DNA of 64,000 nucleotides from Desulfobacteraceae bacterium (lineage in GTDB: Bacteria; Desulfobacterota; Desulfobacteria; Desulfobacterales; RPRI01). Made by a program: the position numbers and the translations under genes. Under the pieces are notes generated by a model. It searched no databases and was not told where the DNA came from. It worked only from the letters and a program-made list of their open reading frames with translations. Position 1 is the first letter of the stretch; each line of letters begins with the position of its first letter. The stretch is taken from NCBI GenBank assembly GCA_003818505.1, contig RPRI01000024.1:37407-101406 (forward strand). Direction: 5' to 3'. This document shows positions 12,351 to 20,519 of this stretch, piece by piece.

Positions 12351-12755
12351 TCAAAGCCAGAAAACGGCAGCGCTGGATTCAGTCTCCTTGAATTCCGGAT
12401 CTCCTGTGACGATTGTAGCCGAAAATTCCTCCGCCGTTGCCACGACGAAGGCATCCGCGTAGGAGATAGGATGGAGCGCCTTCACATGGGCAGCGGCAAG
12501 GACACGTTTTGTCGTGACATCAACCAGATCGACAGGCAAACGTGAAATATCTTCTGTGATCTCTGCGGCTTTCTCTTTCCCTCTCTTGCGGGCGATAATG
12601 TAATAAATTTCGCCGAGACTGATTACCGACATGAAGGCAGCAACATGACCGCTTGATGCTTCCTTGAGGATAGTCCGGACTTTCGCACCAGCCGGCTCTG
12701 CCTGGAAATAGGCAAGCAGGGCATAGCTATCGAGAATGTATTTTGGCTTTTTCAC
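12351..12755 (-). CDS. PIN-domain toxin (VapC-like)
   Basis: YILDSYALLAYFQAEPAG; SYADAFVVATAEEFSATIVTGDPEF. Confidence 0.9.
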   Translation of the reverse strand: MKKPKYILDSYALLAYFQAEPAGAKVRTILKEASSGHVAAFMSVISLGEIYYIIARKRGKEKAAEITEDISRLPVDLVDVTTKRVLAAAHVKALHPISYADAFVVATAEEFSATIVTGDPEFKETESSAAVFWL

Positions 12756-12996
12756 GTTTTTTGTCCTCTGCCCGGGCCGCCAGCAAAGAGTCTGTCAGAG
12801 ATTCGCCATCAGCCAGTTTTCCATAGAGCTTGTCCACAGGGTCGTCTAATTGAGGCGTGAACACGATTTTTCCATCTGCTTCAGTTACCACCATCTTCAT
12901 GCCTGGTTTCAATCCGATCTGCCTCCGGAATAATGAAGGGATAACCACCCAGCCCTTGGAAGAAACGGTGACTATTGTTGAATTTAAAGAACCCAT
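12727..12996 (-). CDS. AbrB/SpoVT-family antitoxin (VapB-like)
   Basis: VTVSSKGWVVIPSLFRRQIGLKPGMKMVV; overlaps the PIN toxin gene. Confidence 0.88.
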   Translation of the reverse strand: MGSLNSTIVTVSSKGWVVIPSLFRRQIGLKPGMKMVVTEADGKIVFTPQLDDPVDKLYGKLADGESLTDSLLAARAEDKKREKAKIHSR

Positions 12997-13059
12997 AAGA
13001 CCTCCAAACGTTATACGTTAATCTAAAAAAAGTATAACACTTTCGACGGATGCGTCAAT

Positions 13060-13120
13060 ATTAATTATTGGAGTCGCTCAAAACTATTTGACAAAATTAG
13101 CAAAACATGGTTTTTTATCA
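13060..13120. repeat. Imperfect direct repeat, copy 1 (about 61 bp; partner 13421-13480)
   Basis: ATTAATTATTGGAGTCGCTCAAAA-TATTT-ACA...TTAGCAA-ACATGG shared. Confidence 0.85.
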
Positions 13121-13181
13121 CATCTTTTCTTTTTCTTACTCTTCGGAAAGCAACAAAACAGGAAACCAAAACATATGGTGA

Positions 13182-13388
13182 ATGAACATGAGAAAAGAGT
13201 ATGATTTTTCAAAAGGTGAAAGAGGCAAGTTTTATCGTTCGGATATGAAGCTGAACATTCCCATTTATCTTGATGGAGAAGTTTCAGCCTTTGTAGAGAA
13301 AATTGCTTCTAAGAAGGGGATTGACCGATCCTCAGTAGTGAACGAACTTCTCAGGGGCGATATAAAACTCACCGAGGTAATGGAATAA
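13182..13388 (+). CDS. Small RHH/CopG-like or BrnA-like antitoxin-type protein
   Basis: MRKEYDFSKGERGKFY N-terminus and VEKIASKKGIDRSSVVNELLRGD. Confidence 0.6.
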   Translation: MNMRKEYDFSKGERGKFYRSDMKLNIPIYLDGEVSAFVEKIASKKGIDRSSVVNELLRGDIKLTEVME

Positions 13389-13420
13389 ATTGTCTTCAGC
13401 AAACCAAGGCATGCGGCAAC

Positions 13421-13480
13421 ATTAATTATTGGAGTCGCTCAAAAGTATTTCACAGCATTAGCAAGACATGGTTTTTATCA
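13421..13480. repeat. Imperfect direct repeat, copy 2 (partner 13060-13120)
   Basis: Same sequence with a few substitutions and one indel. Confidence 0.85.
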
Positions 13481-13565
13481 GGCACAAAGCGCCTTTATTG
13501 ACATTGGATCGAAGGCTATTGACTGCTGCTAAAATAATTAACGTTGCAACCATGGAGGTTTAAAA

Positions 13566-13784
13566 ATGCAAGTCTATACATATTCAGAAGCCCGGCAAAA
13601 ACTATCTATAGTTCTTGATCAGGCTGAAAATACAGGCAAAGTTCTAATTCAAAGGAAAGACGGGCGAACTTTTGCATTGATTCCGGAAAAGATTGCTTCT
13701 TCACCTTTAGATGTTCCATCAATTAAAGCGAATATCACGACTCAGGAAATAGTTGATATTGTTCGGGAAGGAAGAGAACGATAG
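13566..13784 (+). CDS. Phd/YefM-type antitoxin, apparently orphan
   Basis: MQVYTYSEARQKLSIVLDQAENTGKVLIQRKDGRTFALIP; no toxin ORF immediately downstream. Confidence 0.8.
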   Translation: MQVYTYSEARQKLSIVLDQAENTGKVLIQRKDGRTFALIPEKIASSPLDVPSIKANITTQEIVDIVREGRER

Positions 13785-13916
13785 AACCATCTCTTGAATA
13801 CGGACAGACGTAATATCCACTCGCTTTTCCGATCACCTGAACCCTTGAACCCACGACTCCTCGAACCCTATGTTCACCTTATTTATCTAACCCACTAAAA
13901 TTCATTGACAAACCAT

Positions 13917-14150
13917 GGGCAATGTGGTCTTTTAAGTCCGCATTTCAGCAGTCCCATCAAAATTCTCATGCATTCTTTTGACGCATTACATATACGCATT
14001 AGTTTGTTACCCGGGAATTATTATCAATGATCTTCTTTACGCATGTCCTTAACCGAAGACCGAATGGCGTTTGCCGCCCCTTCATTATCTCTACAGCAAT
14101 GGCGGATTATACGGACTGAAAACTGAGGTATTCTTACATTTGTTATGCAC
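13917..14150. repeat. Long imperfect direct repeat (about 220-234 bp), copy 1
   Basis: Shares GGGCAATG..CAGCAGTCCCATCAAAATTCTCATGC..TATACGCATTAGTTTG..ACGGACTGAAAACTGAGGTATTCTTACATTTGTTATGC with 14813-15033. Confidence 0.9.
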
Positions 14151-14201
14151 TGGCAGGATTAAACATTTTATGATATATAAAATGCAAATGGAGAAATCGT
14201 T

Positions 14202-14414
14202 ATGAGCTTAGCAGAGAAAATAATGGAATATGTACAAGCATTGCCGGAATCTAAGCAGGTGGAAGTCCTTGGCTTTGTGGAATATCTTCGCTCAAAGGCG
14301 GAAAAGCAGGAGATAAAAGATTGGACAGACCTTTCCCTGTCTTCTGCGATGCGAGGGATAGAGGAGGAGCAAACCCCGTATACGCTCAATGACATTAAGG
14401 AATCGTTTTTATGA
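14202..14414 (+). CDS. DUF2281-like antitoxin
   Basis: SLAEKIMEYVQALPESKQVEVLGFVEYLRSK; overlaps MazF/PemK-type toxin. Confidence 0.75.
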   Translation: MSLAEKIMEYVQALPESKQVEVLGFVEYLRSKAEKQEIKDWTDLSLSSAMRGIEEEQTPYTLNDIKESFL

Positions 14415-14773
14415 TAGCCGAAGGTCAGGTTATCCTTTTTAGATTTCCTCAAACAGATAAAACAGAAGCAAAGCTTCGTCCTGCCCTTGTTCTTAATCAA
14501 CTACCCGGTCCGTATAATGACTGGCTAATCTGTATGATATCTTCACAACTTCATCATGCAATATCTGATTTTGATGAAGTTCTGACTTCAAGAGCTTCAG
14601 ACTTCGAAGAATCCGGTCTTAAATCGGTAAGCGTTATCAGAATAAGCAGGCTTGCAGTGGTTGACAGCTATATTCTGTTGGGGAAATTGGGCCAAATTGA
14701 TAAACAACGCCTTACCCGCATTAAACGAAAAATAGCAAGCTGGATAGAAGGCACAAAACTAACAGTCCGGTAG
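14411..14773 (+). CDS. PemK/MazF-family toxin
   Basis: EGQVILFRFPQTDKTEAKLRPALVLNQLPGPYNDWLICMISSQ; starts within the antitoxin stop (ATGA-type overlap). Confidence 0.85.
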   Translation: MIAEGQVILFRFPQTDKTEAKLRPALVLNQLPGPYNDWLICMISSQLHHAISDFDEVLTSRASDFEESGLKSVSVIRISRLAVVDSYILLGKLGQIDKQRLTRIKRKIASWIEGTKLTVR

Positions 14774-14812
14774 CCCCGGAAACCGGATTCCGCGGAGCCG
14801 AGGAACAAAAAA

Positions 14813-15033
14813 GGGCAATGACGTTAATTCAGCAGTCCCATCAAAATTCTCATGCGTTCTTTGTGACGGATTACCTATACGCATTAGTTTGCCACCCGGG
14901 AATTATTATCAATGATCTTATATGCCCATTTTCTTAACCGGGGACCGGCTGGCGTTTGCAGCCCCTTTATTATCGCCAAAACAACTGCGGGATATACGGA
15001 CTGAAAACTGAGGTATTCTTACATTTGTTATGC
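14813..15033. repeat. Long imperfect direct repeat, copy 2
   Basis: See copy 1 at 13917-14150. Confidence 0.9.
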
Positions 15034-15046
15034 GCCATCTTTTTTG

Positions 15047-15079
15047 TTGACAATGAATATATTGTCATATAAGTTGACA
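15047..15079 (+). promoter_or_regulatory. Candidate operator/promoter: TGACAAT-gaatat-ATTGTCA palindrome (15048-15067) plus a further TTGACAAT
   Basis: Palindrome read directly, upstream of the ATPase gene start at 15108. Confidence 0.5.
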
Positions 15080-15107
15080 ATAAAATATTTGCTAAAAGGA
15101 GCTATCG

Positions 15108-16268
15108 ATGAGAATTCAAACTGGGAATCCTGTAAGTGGGAGCGATTTCTATAAACGAGTACATTTGATTGACAACGCCTGGGACTTAATCGATTCTGGA
15201 GCCCACATTCTGATTGCGGCGCCAAGACGTGTGGGGAAAACTTCTTTAATGTACTATCTCAGGGATAACCCCAAGAAAAATATCAGTTTTCTTTATCTTG
15301 ATACCGAATCGATAAACAATGAAAACGAGTTTTTCAGGCGAATTGTAAATAAGGTTTTAAAAACCGATTTCATTAAGGGATCACAAAAAGTACGAACATT
15401 TTTAGAAACAAATATACCGACCATCAAAAAAGTTGGACCTGAGGGTGTGGAATTTGGCGTCAGCGACGGGCATGATTATTTTGACATGCTGACTCGTATT
15501 TTGAAATCGACTGCTTGTGAAGATAAAAAACTTGTCATCATGCTGGATGAATTTCCAGAAACGCTGGAAAATATTATTGATGATGAAGGAGAAAATGCCG
15601 GCAGACATTTTATGCAAAGCAATCGTGAACTACGCCATGACAGTGAATTGTGTAACAATGTGCAGTTTATTTATACCGGCTCAATCGGGCTGGAAAATGT
15701 TGTCAGCAAGCTGAATGCAATGCAGTCCATAAATGACCTGGCACGACTTAAAATCCCGACACTTCAAAAGCAAGAAGCCAAAGATTTAATCAGATTCCTT
15801 CTGGAAAGTCTCCAATTTGACCTGTCCGAAAAATTGATTAACTATATTCTCCAAAAAATCGAATGGTTAATTCCATTTTACATTCAACTGGTTCTTCAGG
15901 AATTGAAAGTTCTCGCCCGCAATGAAAAATTAGACAAAATAACTAAAACCGCCATTGACCGGGCATTTGGTTTGATGCTTGAACAAAGGAACCATTTTGA
16001 AAATTGGCATACTCGACTCCGCAAGGTGTTAAAAGGTCATGATTATAATTTTGTCAAAGAATTGCTCAATATAGCATCAGAAAAGGATATAATTAATTCC
16101 AATGATATTTTTAACCTCGCAGTAAAATACGGATTGGAAACCAGCTATAAAGATCTAGTTGGTTCATTAGTTTATGATGGTTACATCAACAATGAAGATG
16201 ATAGTCATATATATCGTTATAACTCACCAATTTTAAGAATGTGGTGGAGGAAGAATGTCGCGAACTGA
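15108..16268 (+). CDS. P-loop ATPase, ATPase_2/archaeal-ATPase-like (STAND/AAA superfamily)
   Basis: Walker A AAPRRVGKTSLMYYL, Walker B KLVIMLDEFPE, C-terminal YRYNSPILRMWWRK typical of this family. Confidence 0.8.
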   Translation: MRIQTGNPVSGSDFYKRVHLIDNAWDLIDSGAHILIAAPRRVGKTSLMYYLRDNPKKNISFLYLDTESINNENEFFRRIVNKVLKTDFIKGSQKVRTFLETNIPTIKKVGPEGVEFGVSDGHDYFDMLTRILKSTACEDKKLVIMLDEFPETLENIIDDEGENAGRHFMQSNRELRHDSELCNNVQFIYTGSIGLENVVSKLNAMQSINDLARLKIPTLQKQEAKDLIRFLLESLQFDLSEKLINYILQKIEWLIPFYIQLVLQELKVLARNEKLDKITKTAIDRAFGLMLEQRNHFENWHTRLRKVLKGHDYNFVKELLNIASEKDIINSNDIFNLAVKYGLETSYKDLVGSLVYDGYINNEDDSHIYRYNSPILRMWWRKNVAN

Positions 16269-18768
16269 TTTTCCTAAAATTTACAATCCTGCCACTCAGA
16301 CAGCCAGTGAACTCATCGAAAATTTTGTGGTGCGAACCGAGTTATTCCACGAAATCTTTGAAGATATCAAAAACTCAGAGATGAAGAATCCGGAACAGCA
16401 TTATATCATTCAGGGAATCAGAGGACAGGGCAAGACCACACTGTTGTTGCGCATCGCTTACGAGATAGAACATGATGAGGAGTTGCGCAAGCGGTTCATT
16501 CCCATAGTGTTTAATGAAGAACAATACAATATCAGCCGCTTATTCAAGCTCTGGGAAACCATTGCCGGATATCTGGAAGAAATGGGTGAGATCAAAGGGC
16601 TTTATAATGAGATGCAAAAATTCATAGATAATGCCGATTTTGAAGAACGTTGTTTTCAAATTCTTGAGAAAGCTTTGATAAAACACCACAAGAAAATGAT
16701 CCTTTTTATCGATAATATCGATGAGCTGTTAACTAAATTTTCCAAACGAGAACATCAGCGACTGCGGGAAGTGTTTCAGGAATCTGCTGAGATGCGGATC
16801 ATAGGCGCTTCCTCAGTAAGCCTGGAGTTCCATTATGATTATGGAAAACCTTTTTACCAGTTTTTCCGAATGCCCCAGCTCCGGGGATTGAATACCGATG
16901 AATCAAAAACTTTGTTATTGAAATTGGGCGAATATTATAAAACTGAGCGTGTTAAAGAAATCGTGGCAAATCAACCGGGTCGAATTGAAGCCCTGCGCCG
17001 CATGACAGGTGGTGTCATCCGCACGATTATCCTGCTGTACGAAATTTTTGTGGACGATACCAATGGCAACGCGTTTCAGGATCTCGAAAAGATACTTGAC
17101 AGCGTTACACCTCTTTATAAGCATCGTATGGATAAGCTTTCCCCGCAGCAACAGGAAATTATCGATTTCATTGCCTTGAGTTGGGATGCGGTCAGCACTA
17201 AAGAGATCGCACAGAAAACCAAGCTGGAAAGTAAAGCTGTGTCTTCACAATTAAAGCAGTTGGAAAAATATCACATCGTTGAAAAGGAAAGAACCAATAC
17301 CAAGAATTACATGTACCGAATCCATGAGCGTTTCTTTAACATCTGGTATCTCATGCGTCTGGGCAGAAAATGGGATGTCAGAAAGGTTCGTTTTTTAATC
17401 GAATTTTTACAAATCTGGTGCGATGAAACAGAGCTGGAAAAGCGAGCCGGAAGACATCTCGAAGCCATAAAACAAAGCAAGCTGAATGATCAACATGCGC
17501 TGTTAATGACCGAGGCTTTGGCTCGCACACCATTAAAACGAGAGATGCAGCACGAATTAATTTCCAAAACCAGAACCTATCTGGATAACGAACATTCAGA
17601 ATTAGTAGCCTTTCTTTGCAAATCGGATAATGAATTAATCAAAGACTCTAAACAAGCGTATGAATCAGGTGATTTTGAGACTGCCATACGGAATATTGAA
17701 CAAATAAAAATTAAAACACCTGATGACTATAATGCATTAGGTGTTCTATCCATAAAATTTAAAAATGATTTTCAGAAGGCGGAACAGTATTATTTGCAGG
17801 CCGTGGGAAAAGACCATGCCGACGCCATGTTTAATCTGGCGCTGTTGTATCAATTCGAATTCAAGGATATTCAGAAGGCGGATCAATATTATTTGCAGGC
17901 CGTGGGAAAAGACCACGCCGACGCCATGTTTAGTCTGGCGCTGTTGTATCAATTCGAATTCAAGGATTATCAGAAGGCAGAACAGTATTATTTGCAGGCC
18001 GTGGGAAAAGACCACGCCGACGCCATGTTTAGTCTGGCGCTGTTGTATCAATTCGAATTCAAGGATTATCAGAAGGCGGAACAGTATTATTTGCAGGCCG
18101 TGGGGAAAGACCACGCCGACGCCATGTTTAGTCTGGCGCTGTTGTATCAATTCGAATTCAAGGATTTTCAGAAGGCAGAACAGTATTATTTGCAGGCCGT
18201 GGGGAAAGACCACGCCGGTGCCATGTTTAATCTGGCGCAGTTTTATCAATTTGAATTTAGGAATTTCGAGAAGGCGGAACAGTATTATTTGCAGGCCGTG
18301 GGAAAAGACCACGCCGACGCCATGAATAGTTTAGCCTGGTCATATTTTGAGAAAAAGATCAATAAACAGAAGGCTCTTGAGTATGCGGGACTTTCTTTTA
18401 AAAAAGAGAAGAATATTTATAACTCCCATACTTATTCTATGGTTTTATTATGGGATAATCAGATTGAAAAAGCGTATAAAAGCTCCCTTGAGTTTTTAAG
18501 CAATCAAGAATCATTTGAAAAATTTCCGGAAGATATAAGCCTGTTTCTGTTGCTGCTAATAGCCAAAAAACAATACCAATTGGCATTAAAGCTCTTCAAT
18601 GAAAATTCACATAATTTAAAAGATCGTTTTAAACCTGTATATTATGCGCTGATGTATTTTATGCAGGATGAATACCCCAATGAATATCGCAGGATGGGCG
18701 GTGAATTAAAACAGACGGTAGAAGAAATCATCGGGAGAATTCATCAATTGGAGAAGGATTATGAATAG
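16255..18768 (+). CDS. P-loop ATPase with winged-helix region and C-terminal Sel1/TPR-like repeats
   Basis: Walker A GIRGQGKTTLLLRIAYEI, Walker B KMILFIDNIDELL, HTH VSTKEIAQKTKLESKAVSSQLKQLEKYHIVEKE, tandem AEQYYLQAVGKDHADAMFSLALLYQFEFKD; 14-nt overlap with upstream gene. Confidence 0.8.
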   Translation: MSRTDFPKIYNPATQTASELIENFVVRTELFHEIFEDIKNSEMKNPEQHYIIQGIRGQGKTTLLLRIAYEIEHDEELRKRFIPIVFNEEQYNISRLFKLWETIAGYLEEMGEIKGLYNEMQKFIDNADFEERCFQILEKALIKHHKKMILFIDNIDELLTKFSKREHQRLREVFQESAEMRIIGASSVSLEFHYDYGKPFYQFFRMPQLRGLNTDESKTLLLKLGEYYKTERVKEIVANQPGRIEALRRMTGGVIRTIILLYEIFVDDTNGNAFQDLEKILDSVTPLYKHRMDKLSPQQQEIIDFIALSWDAVSTKEIAQKTKLESKAVSSQLKQLEKYHIVEKERTNTKNYMYRIHERFFNIWYLMRLGRKWDVRKVRFLIEFLQIWCDETELEKRAGRHLEAIKQSKLNDQHALLMTEALARTPLKREMQHELISKTRTYLDNEHSELVAFLCKSDNELIKDSKQAYESGDFETAIRNIEQIKIKTPDDYNALGVLSIKFKNDFQKAEQYYLQAVGKDHADAMFNLALLYQFEFKDIQKADQYYLQAVGKDHADAMFSLALLYQFEFKDYQKAEQYYLQAVGKDHADAMFSLALLYQFEFKDYQKAEQYYLQAVGKDHADAMFSLALLYQFEFKDFQKAEQYYLQAVGKDHAGAMFNLAQFYQFEFRNFEKAEQYYLQAVGKDHADAMNSLAWSYFEKKINKQKALEYAGLSFKKEKNIYNSHTYSMVLLWDNQIEKAYKSSLEFLSNQESFEKFPEDISLFLLLLIAKKQYQLALKLFNENSHNLKDRFKPVYYALMYFMQDEYPNEYRRMGGELKQTVEEIIGRIHQLEKDYE
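17767..18360 (+). repeat. Six tandem 99-nt (33-aa) coding repeats, central copies nearly identical
   Basis: Unit starts at 17767, 17866, 17965, 18064, 18163, 18262. Confidence 0.95.
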
Positions 18769-18820
18769 ATAATGGGATGAGTAAAAAATGGTTTAAAGAA
18801 GCTTCGGGGTAGTATTAGGG

Positions 18821-19020
18821 GGTAGTATTAGGGATGTCTATAAATAAGTAAATATCTTTAATTTTGGGTGTATTTATGAGACATTTTAAACTAATAAACC
18901 AGATAAATGTCCGGCGGTGTGTGCAAAATATAGAAAAAACAACACTATCAGACCTTGTCAAGAATCGGCTGAGAATCCGAAGTACCATCGAGTTTCCGGG
19001 GTGGGAAAAACTGAACAATC
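18821..19020 (+). pseudogene. Truncated duplicate of the higB upstream region and N-terminus
   Basis: 200-bp imperfect direct repeat of 19051-19250; reads MQNIEKTTLSDLVKNRLRIRSTIEFPGWEKLNNPGF*. Confidence 0.88.
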
Positions 19021-19050
19021 CCGGTTTTTAAACCCCTCGAATTCGACGGG

Positions 19051-19250
19051 GGTAGTATTAGGGATGTCCATAAATAAGTAAATATCTTTAATTTTGGGTG
19101 TGTTTATTGGTCATCTTAAACTATTAACCTGATTAATGTCCGGCGGTGTGTGCAAAATATAAAAGAAGCAACACTATCGGACCTTGCCAAGAATCGGCTG
19201 AGAATCCGAAGTACCATCGAATTTCCGGGGTGGGAAAAACTGAACAATTC
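19051..19250. repeat. Second copy of the 200-bp direct repeat, continuous with the intact higB
   Basis: See 18821-19020. Confidence 0.88.
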
Positions 19251-19476
19251 CGAGATTAAGTCATGGTATAGGATAGTTAAACATAGCGATTTTAATTCAT
19301 TTGCTGAACTGCGCCAGGCCTTTCTGGGGGCTGATAAGGTAGATAATTTGACGGTTTTTAATATTGGCGGCAACAAGGCCCGTTTAATTGCCGCGATACA
19401 TTACAACACACGAAGGATTTATATCCGGCATGTTCTTACTCACAAGGAATATGACCGGGAAAATCGGAGGAAATAA
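19150..19476 (+). CDS. higB: HigB-family mRNA interferase toxin (GTG start)
   Basis: SWYRIVKHSDFNSFAELRQAFLGADKVDNLTVFNIGGNKARLIAAIHYNTRRIYIRHVLTHKEYDR. Confidence 0.88.
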   Translation: MQNIKEATLSDLAKNRLRIRSTIEFPGWEKLNNSEIKSWYRIVKHSDFNSFAELRQAFLGADKVDNLTVFNIGGNKARLIAAIHYNTRRIYIRHVLTHKEYDRENRRK

Positions 19477-19877
19477 TGAATACTCAGCTTAAAGAAATTG
19501 CCAAAGTTTGGCCGAACATACAGGGTGTATTCTCAGTGCCGCATAATGAAAAAAATTATAACAACCTGGTCAATCTTCTCGACAGTCTTATTGATGAAGT
19601 GGGTAACAATGAACACCATCCTTTATCTTAATTGATGGAGACAATCGGAAGCCTGATCGAAACCTATGAATCCCAAAATTATCCCGATATGGAGGGGGGT
19701 CCGATAAATGCGCTAAAGACCTTGATGGAAGAACATGGCCTTAAGCAATCAGACCTTCCCGAGATCGGGAGCCAAGGAGTCGTGTCAGAAATTATATCCG
19801 GCAAACGCCAGCTCAATGTTCGCCAACTTAAGCTTCTCAGCGAGCGTTTTAAAGTTTCACCTGCAGTGTTTGTATGA
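19476..19877 (+). pseudogene. higA: HigA-type HTH antitoxin interrupted by an in-frame TAA (19629-19631); reading resumes in the same frame
   Basis: MNTQLKEIAKVWPNIQGVFSVPHNEKNYNNLVNLLDSLIDEVGNNEHHPLS* then LMETIGSLIETYESQNYPDMEGGPINALKTLMEEHGLKQSDLPEIG... Confidence 0.8.
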
Positions 19878-19953
19878 TTGAACTATTTTAAAATTAACCT
19901 GTAGGTTCAACTGCCGGTGTTCAGCTTGGCTGGTTCCGGCCTGGTAAAGCAGA

Positions 19954-20211
19954 TCAGGGTCGGTTTAAAATATCGTGGGTTCCGACCTTGCGAAGAACAG
20001 CCGTATCTCCAGCCTTCGTGTAAGTAATTCTATAGGTTTTGGACACTCTGATTTCATAAATATCATCATGACCGGACATTTTTTTATGTCCTAATGACGG
20101 ATGAGATAGGTCGTTCTCAAGGAGAATCAATGCCTTTTTGACCTGATTCTTAATTTCGGGATCAAGCTTTTTATAAAGCTTCAAAAAGGTTCTGGTGGCC
20201 TCAAGATGCAT
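19954..20211 (-). CDS. RelE/ParE-superfamily toxin
   Basis: FLKLYKKLDPEIKNQVKKALILLENDLSHPSLGHKKMSGHDDIYEIRVSKTYRITYT. Confidence 0.85.
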   Translation of the reverse strand: MHLEATRTFLKLYKKLDPEIKNQVKKALILLENDLSHPSLGHKKMSGHDDIYEIRVSKTYRITYTKAGDTAVLRKVGTHDILNRP

Positions 20212-20519
20212 TATTTGTCCATTTCCGTAAATAGATCATCCAGACTTTTCGTTTTTGTTACACGTCCTTTTTTTATATCCTTTTCAGCATCTTCTTCATC
20301 GGCTTGCCATTCTTTGGTAAAAAAATAGGCCTGTTCTTTGGGAACTAAAACTTTAGGCTCGAGAATAATCCTGTTGTTATCAATGGATATATCAAGATAG
20401 TCATCCATTTTAAGCCCCAAAACGGTTATAATCTCTTTGGGTATGGCAACCTGATTACTTTTTCCTAATTTTCTAAGCATGAAGCACCTCCTGTTAAATC
20501 CATATATACATATATTCAT
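20211..20519 (-). CDS. AbrB/SpoVT-domain antitoxin (probable start at the internal MLRKLGKSNQ)
   Basis: LRKLGKSNQVAIPKEIITVLGLKMDDYLDISID; TAATG overlap with the toxin gene. Confidence 0.85.
   Translation of the reverse strand: MNICIYGFNRRCFMLRKLGKSNQVAIPKEIITVLGLKMDDYLDISIDNNRIILEPKVLVPKEQAYFFTKEWQADEEDAEKDIKKGRVTKTKSLDDLFTEMDK

Follow-up and report, generated by a model that had tools for sequence, protein, structure and literature searches.

An overlapping pair of STAND-type ATPase genes with predicted self-operators: a probable defence or stress-sensing module in a Desulfobacteraceae genome

The window analysed here, a stretch of 64,000 nucleotides (nt) from a Desulfobacteraceae bacterium (NCBI GenBank assembly GCA_003818505.1, contig RPRI01000024.1, positions 37,407 to 101,406 of the forward strand), carries two overlapping genes, A and B, that both encode P-loop ATPases and that appear to be controlled through DNA sites directly upstream of them. 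A sequence-only reading of this DNA had singled out the pair as a candidate conflict or defence system, describing open reading frames of 386 and 837 amino acids (aa), B starting 14 nt before the end of the A stop codon, with P-loop motifs in both products and a winged helix and C-terminal repeats in B; each of these elements is present, the repeats being a TPR/Sel1 array. The window's genome holds a single copy of the pair, whose coding features are as follows.

15108..16268, + strand: gene A, 386-aa STAND/ORC-class ATPase with a C-terminal winged helix; AlphaFold pLDDT (predicted local distance difference test) 92.9
15219..15245, + strand: gene A Walker A, APRRVGKTS; GK invariant in 75/75
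15534..15560, + strand: gene A Walker B, VIMLDEFPE; DE invariant in 76/76
16224..16247, + strand: conserved C-terminal SPILRMWW of gene A
16255..16268, + strand: A/B overlap, 14 nt; recurs in homologues, the conserved WW codons of A preceding the B start
16255..18768, + strand: gene B, 837-aa STAND NTPase with winged helix and TPR/Sel1 array; residues 1-482 pLDDT 91.9
16414..16440, + strand: gene B Walker A, GIRGQGKTT; GK invariant in 76/76
16705..16725, + strand: gene B Walker B, FIDNIDE; family [D/E]N instead of DE, N in 70/76
17128..17322, + strand: gene B winged helix, residues ~292-356; predicted operator reader
17326..17358, + strand: gene B ERFFNIWYLMR signature
17767..18324, + strand: TPR/Sel1 array; DNA-level tandem of a 99-nt unit (33 aa), 5.6 near-identical copies, 93% matches

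Judged from Pfam and its AlphaFold model, protein A consists of an ATPase domain and a winged helix only. Among its six Pfam matches at E up to 1, that to AAA-ATPase_like is weak (26.5 bits, cut-off 26.1), and a phmmer search against the PDB gave merely chance matches below E 1. The nearest folds to the model are the archaeal ATPase_2 proteins SSO1545 (2fna) and PABY2304 (2qen), which are also the best profile matches, followed by ORC/Cdc6, with CED-4 also among the matches. However, identity to the two archaeal proteins is only 16-17%, and Pfam ATPase_2 stays below its cut-off in the window's genome. The A profile also matched TAL effectors; these hits were discarded, as they stem from a repeat region of which no stretch passes by itself.

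Protein B begins directly with its ATPase domain, and neither Pfam nor the model places an effector domain at its N-terminus. NACHT (27.0 bits, cut-off 26.7) and nSTAND5 (29.4 bits, cut-off 34) match weakly and TPR strongly; the model of residues 1-482 lies nearest to PABY2304 and Cdc6/Orc1, then to the STAND-TPR structure 6mfv, Apaf-1, NLRC4 and CED-4. Both proteins, each modelled singly, thus adopt STAND/ORC-class folds in confident models that combine an ATPase core with a winged helix, and B alone adds the C-terminal superstructure repeats typical of STAND proteins. The earlier statement that neither protein has an evident effector domain holds, since none was found in A or B; it had passed over the asymmetry between the two ATPases, whose Walker motifs suggest that A hydrolyses ATP and B chiefly binds it.

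In about 59 of 83 B proteins, the C-terminus has a match to TPR families. Tandem arrays at the DNA level occur in 30 of 92 B genes, with differing unit periods, mostly of 96-129 nt, that point to repeated independent amplification. Substitutions among the units are mostly purifying, the ratio of nonsynonymous to synonymous change (pN/pS) being below 1 in all arrays save one; positive selection on the units was tested and found no general support. The B gene of locus L043 (10609-13449) holds seven 40-aa units with a pN/pS of 2.35, unlike the other arrays.

How strictly the two genes belong together was assessed on 80 genome contigs carrying the B relatives nearest to that of the window. Searched with a profile of A, 74 of the 80 loci, across many phyla, show an A homologue or remnant just upstream of B, a few of them broken frames or contig-end fragments; of the remaining six, five have B at a contig end and one (L101) is truly A-less. 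The co-occurrence survey that the sequence-only reading had named as a check therefore comes out at 74 of the 75 loci with upstream DNA. Among the 76 pairs with a long A, B starts between -60 and +30 nt from the A stop in 68, the 14-nt overlap is seen again in distant hosts, and the A and B distance matrices are closely correlated (Mantel r = 0.91, a value reached by 0 of 2000 permutations). On the sequences compared, a chance arrangement of open reading frames is ruled out, because A so regularly precedes B and the Walker lysines are invariant in the 76 pairs. No third gene is conserved: among three genes per side of all loci, only chance housekeeping matches recur. Farther B-like proteins lacking A do exist, for instance on Agrobacterium and Sphingobium plasmids; an origin-spanning A gene was looked for on the latter and not found.

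The distribution of the pair is patchy. B is present in about 10% of 390 genomes of the window's order and in 3 of 10 genomes of its genus, the window's included, and the flanking genes tried for synteny are poorly conserved within the genus. In a maximum-likelihood tree of 76 B proteins, phyla are mixed on well supported branches (28 label changes against a minimum of 14), and the window's B groups with a Desulfobacteraceae sequence and then with one from Neomarinimicrobiota. Surplus label changes do not in themselves prove transfer; taken with the patchy spread, the copies on plasmids and the unrelated flanks, however, they fit a mobile cassette, and the pair looks like an autonomous, horizontally moving dyad. 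Insertion elements interrupt A in two relatives, an IS3-like element in a member of the Chlorobiaceae (L080, 7684-8873) and an IS5 element on Moraxella p4 (L161, 7256-8007).

The sequence-only reading had also credited the pair with its own promoter, which proves correct in a more specific form than was stated: two palindromic operators, 27 nt apart and unmentioned at the time, are predicted just upstream of A.

15047..15068, + strand: operator O1, palindrome TTGACAATGAATATATTGTCAT; TTGACAA-N8-TTGTCAA, 1 mismatch
15074..15095, + strand: operator O2, TTGACAATAAAATATTTGCTAA; 2 mismatches, exactly 27 nt after O1
15096..15101, + strand: gene A ribosome-binding site AAGGAG, read from the sequence

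O1 and O2 form the sole two-site array at up to 2 mismatches in the window's genome; a single perfect palindrome of this type lies elsewhere in that genome (L166, G000:C90:29508-29529), without a 27-nt partner array. The window's clade comprises 24 loci from Desulfobacterota, Bacteroidota, Clostridium, Gammaproteobacteria, Campylobacterota, SAR324 and Neomarinimicrobiota. Across it, TTGACAA-N8-TTGTCAA is found 55 times within the 7.7 kb surrounding the starts of A genes versus 40 times in 440 kb elsewhere, or 43 versus 5 at up to 2 mismatches. The sites most often lie exactly 27 nt apart (27 cases), with 54, 81 and 108 nt next in frequency. Other clades use other palindromes at other spacings: CAACA-N4-TGTTG at 15 nt in a second large clade (clade 3, 21 loci; 51 sites in 6.7 kb near A versus 15 in 331 kb), where a version with a 5-nt loop failed and the 4-nt loop fits, and AATTCAA-NN-TTGAATT at 16 nt in a third (13 loci; 12 sites near A versus 7 in 205 kb). 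A pattern-free test for two like palindromes at the clade spacing finds them at 14 of 24 A promoters in the window's clade and at 8 of 21 in the CAACA-N4-TGTTG clade, whereas the remaining gene starts at these loci have none (0 of 204 and 0 of 175, respectively); spacings and patterns were derived from the same data, so that p-values are descriptive and it is the contrast with other gene starts that carries weight. In nine whole genomes of the window's clade, good arrays stand at A promoters only. Upstream of A in a SAR324 relative (L068, G102:C49:90150-90414), about ten operator copies follow one another at 27-nt spacing.

That the palindromes are mere -35 boxes was considered and rejected, given that they differ in other clades and that their spacing is exact. 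Where -35 and -10 boxes are readable (L053, L073), the last operator overlaps them, which suggests repression. The pair is not accompanied by any regulator gene, which leaves A or B as the candidate reader. The winged helix of A is disfavoured for this role: besides being on average acidic and little conserved, it is shortened in L056, a relative that retains the operators. That of B matches MarR/LexA/HVO_A0114-like DNA-binding domains in profile searches, with weak PADLOC matches to Csa3/CARF, and the mean net charge of helix 3 and the wing is +3.0 in B versus -1.1 in A. Two independent kinds of case point to the B winged helix as the predicted reader. In L040 and L041 the array is absent, and the helix and wing of B are altered, the helix having turned acidic (-2 and -5) with loss of its SK..SAQL pattern; conversely, two A-less plasmid B genes retain the array before B, in a promoter shared with a divergent cyclase gene. 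The latter lie in CBASS/Pycsar-like islands (operators at L162 8890-8974 and L163 938-1043), and in the former, toxin-antitoxin genes sit between A and B (TumE with an HVO_A0114-type winged helix, and UPF0175; L041 9405-10108, L040 1150-1482). On strong sequence evidence the pair is probably self-regulated, and B likely controls its own operon through the predicted operators.

As to genomic surroundings, the toxin-antitoxin neighbourhood noticed in the sequence-only reading is borne out by at least five such modules at 12351-20519 of the window (PIN/MazE-like, a Phd/YefM-like antitoxin, DUF2281/PemK, HigB/HTH and ParE-like/MazE-like). A tandem duplication at 18818-19252 (229-nt unit, 1.9 copies, 91% matches) spans the higB upstream region and the 5' part of that gene. 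Several plasmid homologues reside in defence islands: one adjoins Qat genes on Moraxella pNP7-2, one has its B overlapped by 17 nt by a PD-Lambda-4_A/Avs4-like gene on Moraxella pSKB0120-2, and one lies near DUF262 (GmrSD-like), WYL and IetA-like genes on a Segatella plasmid. The A-less B of the Sphingobium plasmid stands between E1/E2, JAB and TIR genes and Pycsar and AbiE genes, and that of the Agrobacterium plasmid adjoins cyclases and an E2/ThiF gene. Of the chromosomal loci, L115 has a complete Azaca system (ZacABC) nearby and L086 an HmaC-like gene. In a Moraxella plasmid segment (L164, 5009-15681), B and the overlapping PD-Lambda-4_A/Avs4-like gene are followed by a 1586-aa protein that matches NPHP3_N weakly. 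On this context, defence is the leading candidate function of the pair.

Within the open-licence literature, the published proposal that comes nearest is the nSTAND2 operon (Kaur et al. 2021, PMC8195603, Fig. 6C), a mobile bacterial two-gene operon of STAND NTPases in which one partner has a degenerate NTP site and a variable C-terminal module, GT4 or HEPN. The logic is similar, that is, a mobile two-gene STAND operon with one partner altered in its NTP site and carrying a variable C-terminal module, but Walker A is intact in both A and B and the variable module of B is a repeat array. The pair is not filed as a member. Pfam nSTAND2 (PF20702) has no match in the window's genome at E 0.001 and is not among the six matches of A or the best 25 of B at E up to 1. 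The C-termini of B are repeats, and their 25 commonest families include neither GT4 nor HEPN.

Further parallels are partial. Avs5 (PMC12931631) likewise joins a STAND ATPase to C-terminal TPR/Sel1 repeats, proposed as a phage sensor; in contrast to Avs/AVAST systems, the present pair has no N-terminal nuclease, SIR2 or protease effector, and it possesses a second ATPase gene and self-operators. The CARD-NLR system LypABC (PMC13236601) shares the paired ATPases, the second ORC-like with TPR repeats, and a patchy spread outside defence islands, but LypA carries CARD and trypsin domains without Walker residues and lypABC includes a third peptidase gene, whereas no CARD, trypsin-like peptidase or third peptidase gene accompanies A and B. 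Defence-linked promoter autorepression is known from RptR, which acts on a defence island through three repeated palindromes (PMC12255303), and from WYL-type repressors of defence islands (PMC9122601); both are separate regulator genes, whereas here the predicted reader seems to be built into the STAND protein B itself as one of its domains. Regarding MADS, the PADLOC mad8 matches of the two proteins are very weak (20.0 and 18.6 bits), and no neighbour genes recur at A-B loci. The pair is probably an uncharacterised defence or stress-sensing module related to immune receptors.

We favour, with a probability of about one half, an autonomous, horizontally mobile STAND dyad, two genes whose products would sense an invader or a related stress inside the cell and would govern their own expression. 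A and B would form a hetero-oligomer; in the resting cell, B would occupy the operator array by means of its winged helix and hold expression of the operon down. Binding of a ligand to the TPR/Sel1 array, most likely a phage or other invader product, would be followed by an A-driven ATP switch that alters B and releases the operator, so that the levels of A and B rise and the complex, once assembled, takes effect. Since the analysis turned up neither an enzyme domain nor a conserved third gene nor a further operator array, the output would probably come from the complex itself, which might consume ATP, bind DNA or act on a host protein, to the harm of the infected cell or the invader.

The conflict or defence part of the sequence-only reading is partly supported by the coupled STAND-type ATPases, their near-universal co-occurrence, the immune-STAND-like repeats, the signs of horizontal spread, and the plasmid defence islands; it gains little from the very weak PADLOC matches or from the mostly mixed chromosomal neighbourhoods. 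Neither outcome that the reading had named as refuting it, homologues regularly in housekeeping contexts or a lack of A-B co-occurrence between genomes, was observed. Several observations weigh against this dyad model. At 20 chromosomal loci, most of the 138 neighbour proteins are ordinary, and specific defence matches outnumber those in same-contig controls by a narrow margin. Viral and phage collections yielded no relative of the pair, and neither protein offers an effector domain. The repeat units are mostly under purifying change, and repression is preferred to activation from the box overlap in few loci only.

Of the alternatives, an addiction module, in which one ATPase is harmful, its partner restrains it and the palindromes autoregulate the operon as in type II toxin-antitoxin systems, would account for two overlapping genes with self-operators and no third gene, for the plasmid copies, for the position among toxin-antitoxin modules and for the two relatives whose A and B are separated by inserted toxin-antitoxin genes. 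It is nevertheless unlikely: at 386 and 837 aa the proteins far exceed toxin-antitoxin partners in size and show no known toxin fold or domain, addiction does not need a repeat sensor and an ATPase switch, and B alone persists on two plasmids.

MalT-type regulators join a STAND ATPase to a TPR sensor and a DNA-binding domain, and B, with its ATPase, winged helix and TPR sensor, could belong to a regulator pair of this kind that responds to a metabolite or stress and has no immune role; the array that A-less B genes keep in the divergent promoter with cyclase genes would suit it. In B, however, the winged helix stands between ATPase and repeats, and a second ATPase serves as partner. As arrays occur at the A promoter only in the nine genomes, there would be no regulon to serve, nor is any pathway gene linked, and we regard this explanation, too, as improbable.

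A DNA-transaction module for segregation, replication or transposition, for which the repeats before A would serve in the manner of a centromere or an origin, recalls the fold similarity to ORC and TnsC/MuB and the combination of an NTPase gene, a DNA-binding gene and an iteron-like array of up to about ten copies in L068, but it is very unlikely: the pair forms a single chromosomal locus in unrelated neighbourhoods, has no conserved rep, transposase or recombinase partner, and would leave the TPR sensor unexplained. Ordinary housekeeping ATPases, a context that the sequence-only reading had named as its potential refutation, fit the housekeeping genes that often flank chromosomal copies but hardly merit belief for a pair that is rare and patchy even within a genus, has a cross-phylum tree, and is mostly single copy with no stable neighbourhood.

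A bolder form of the self-regulating defence dyad can be put forward tentatively, as a possibility that we hold rather doubtful: an immune-receptor class, widespread yet undescribed, whose STAND sensor is its own operator-bound repressor, placed by a built-in winged helix on an array with exact periods specific to each clade; the partner ATPase drives the switch, ligand on the repeats frees the operon, and the dyad stops the invader or the cell without an enzyme effector. If true, a two-gene module spread over many phyla and unrecognised by PADLOC-DB 2023 would unite ligand sensing, ATP switching and transcriptional self-control. Its strict-period operator arrays would provide a sequence handle by which members may be found and classified, and would make the action of an effector-less STAND sensor directly testable.

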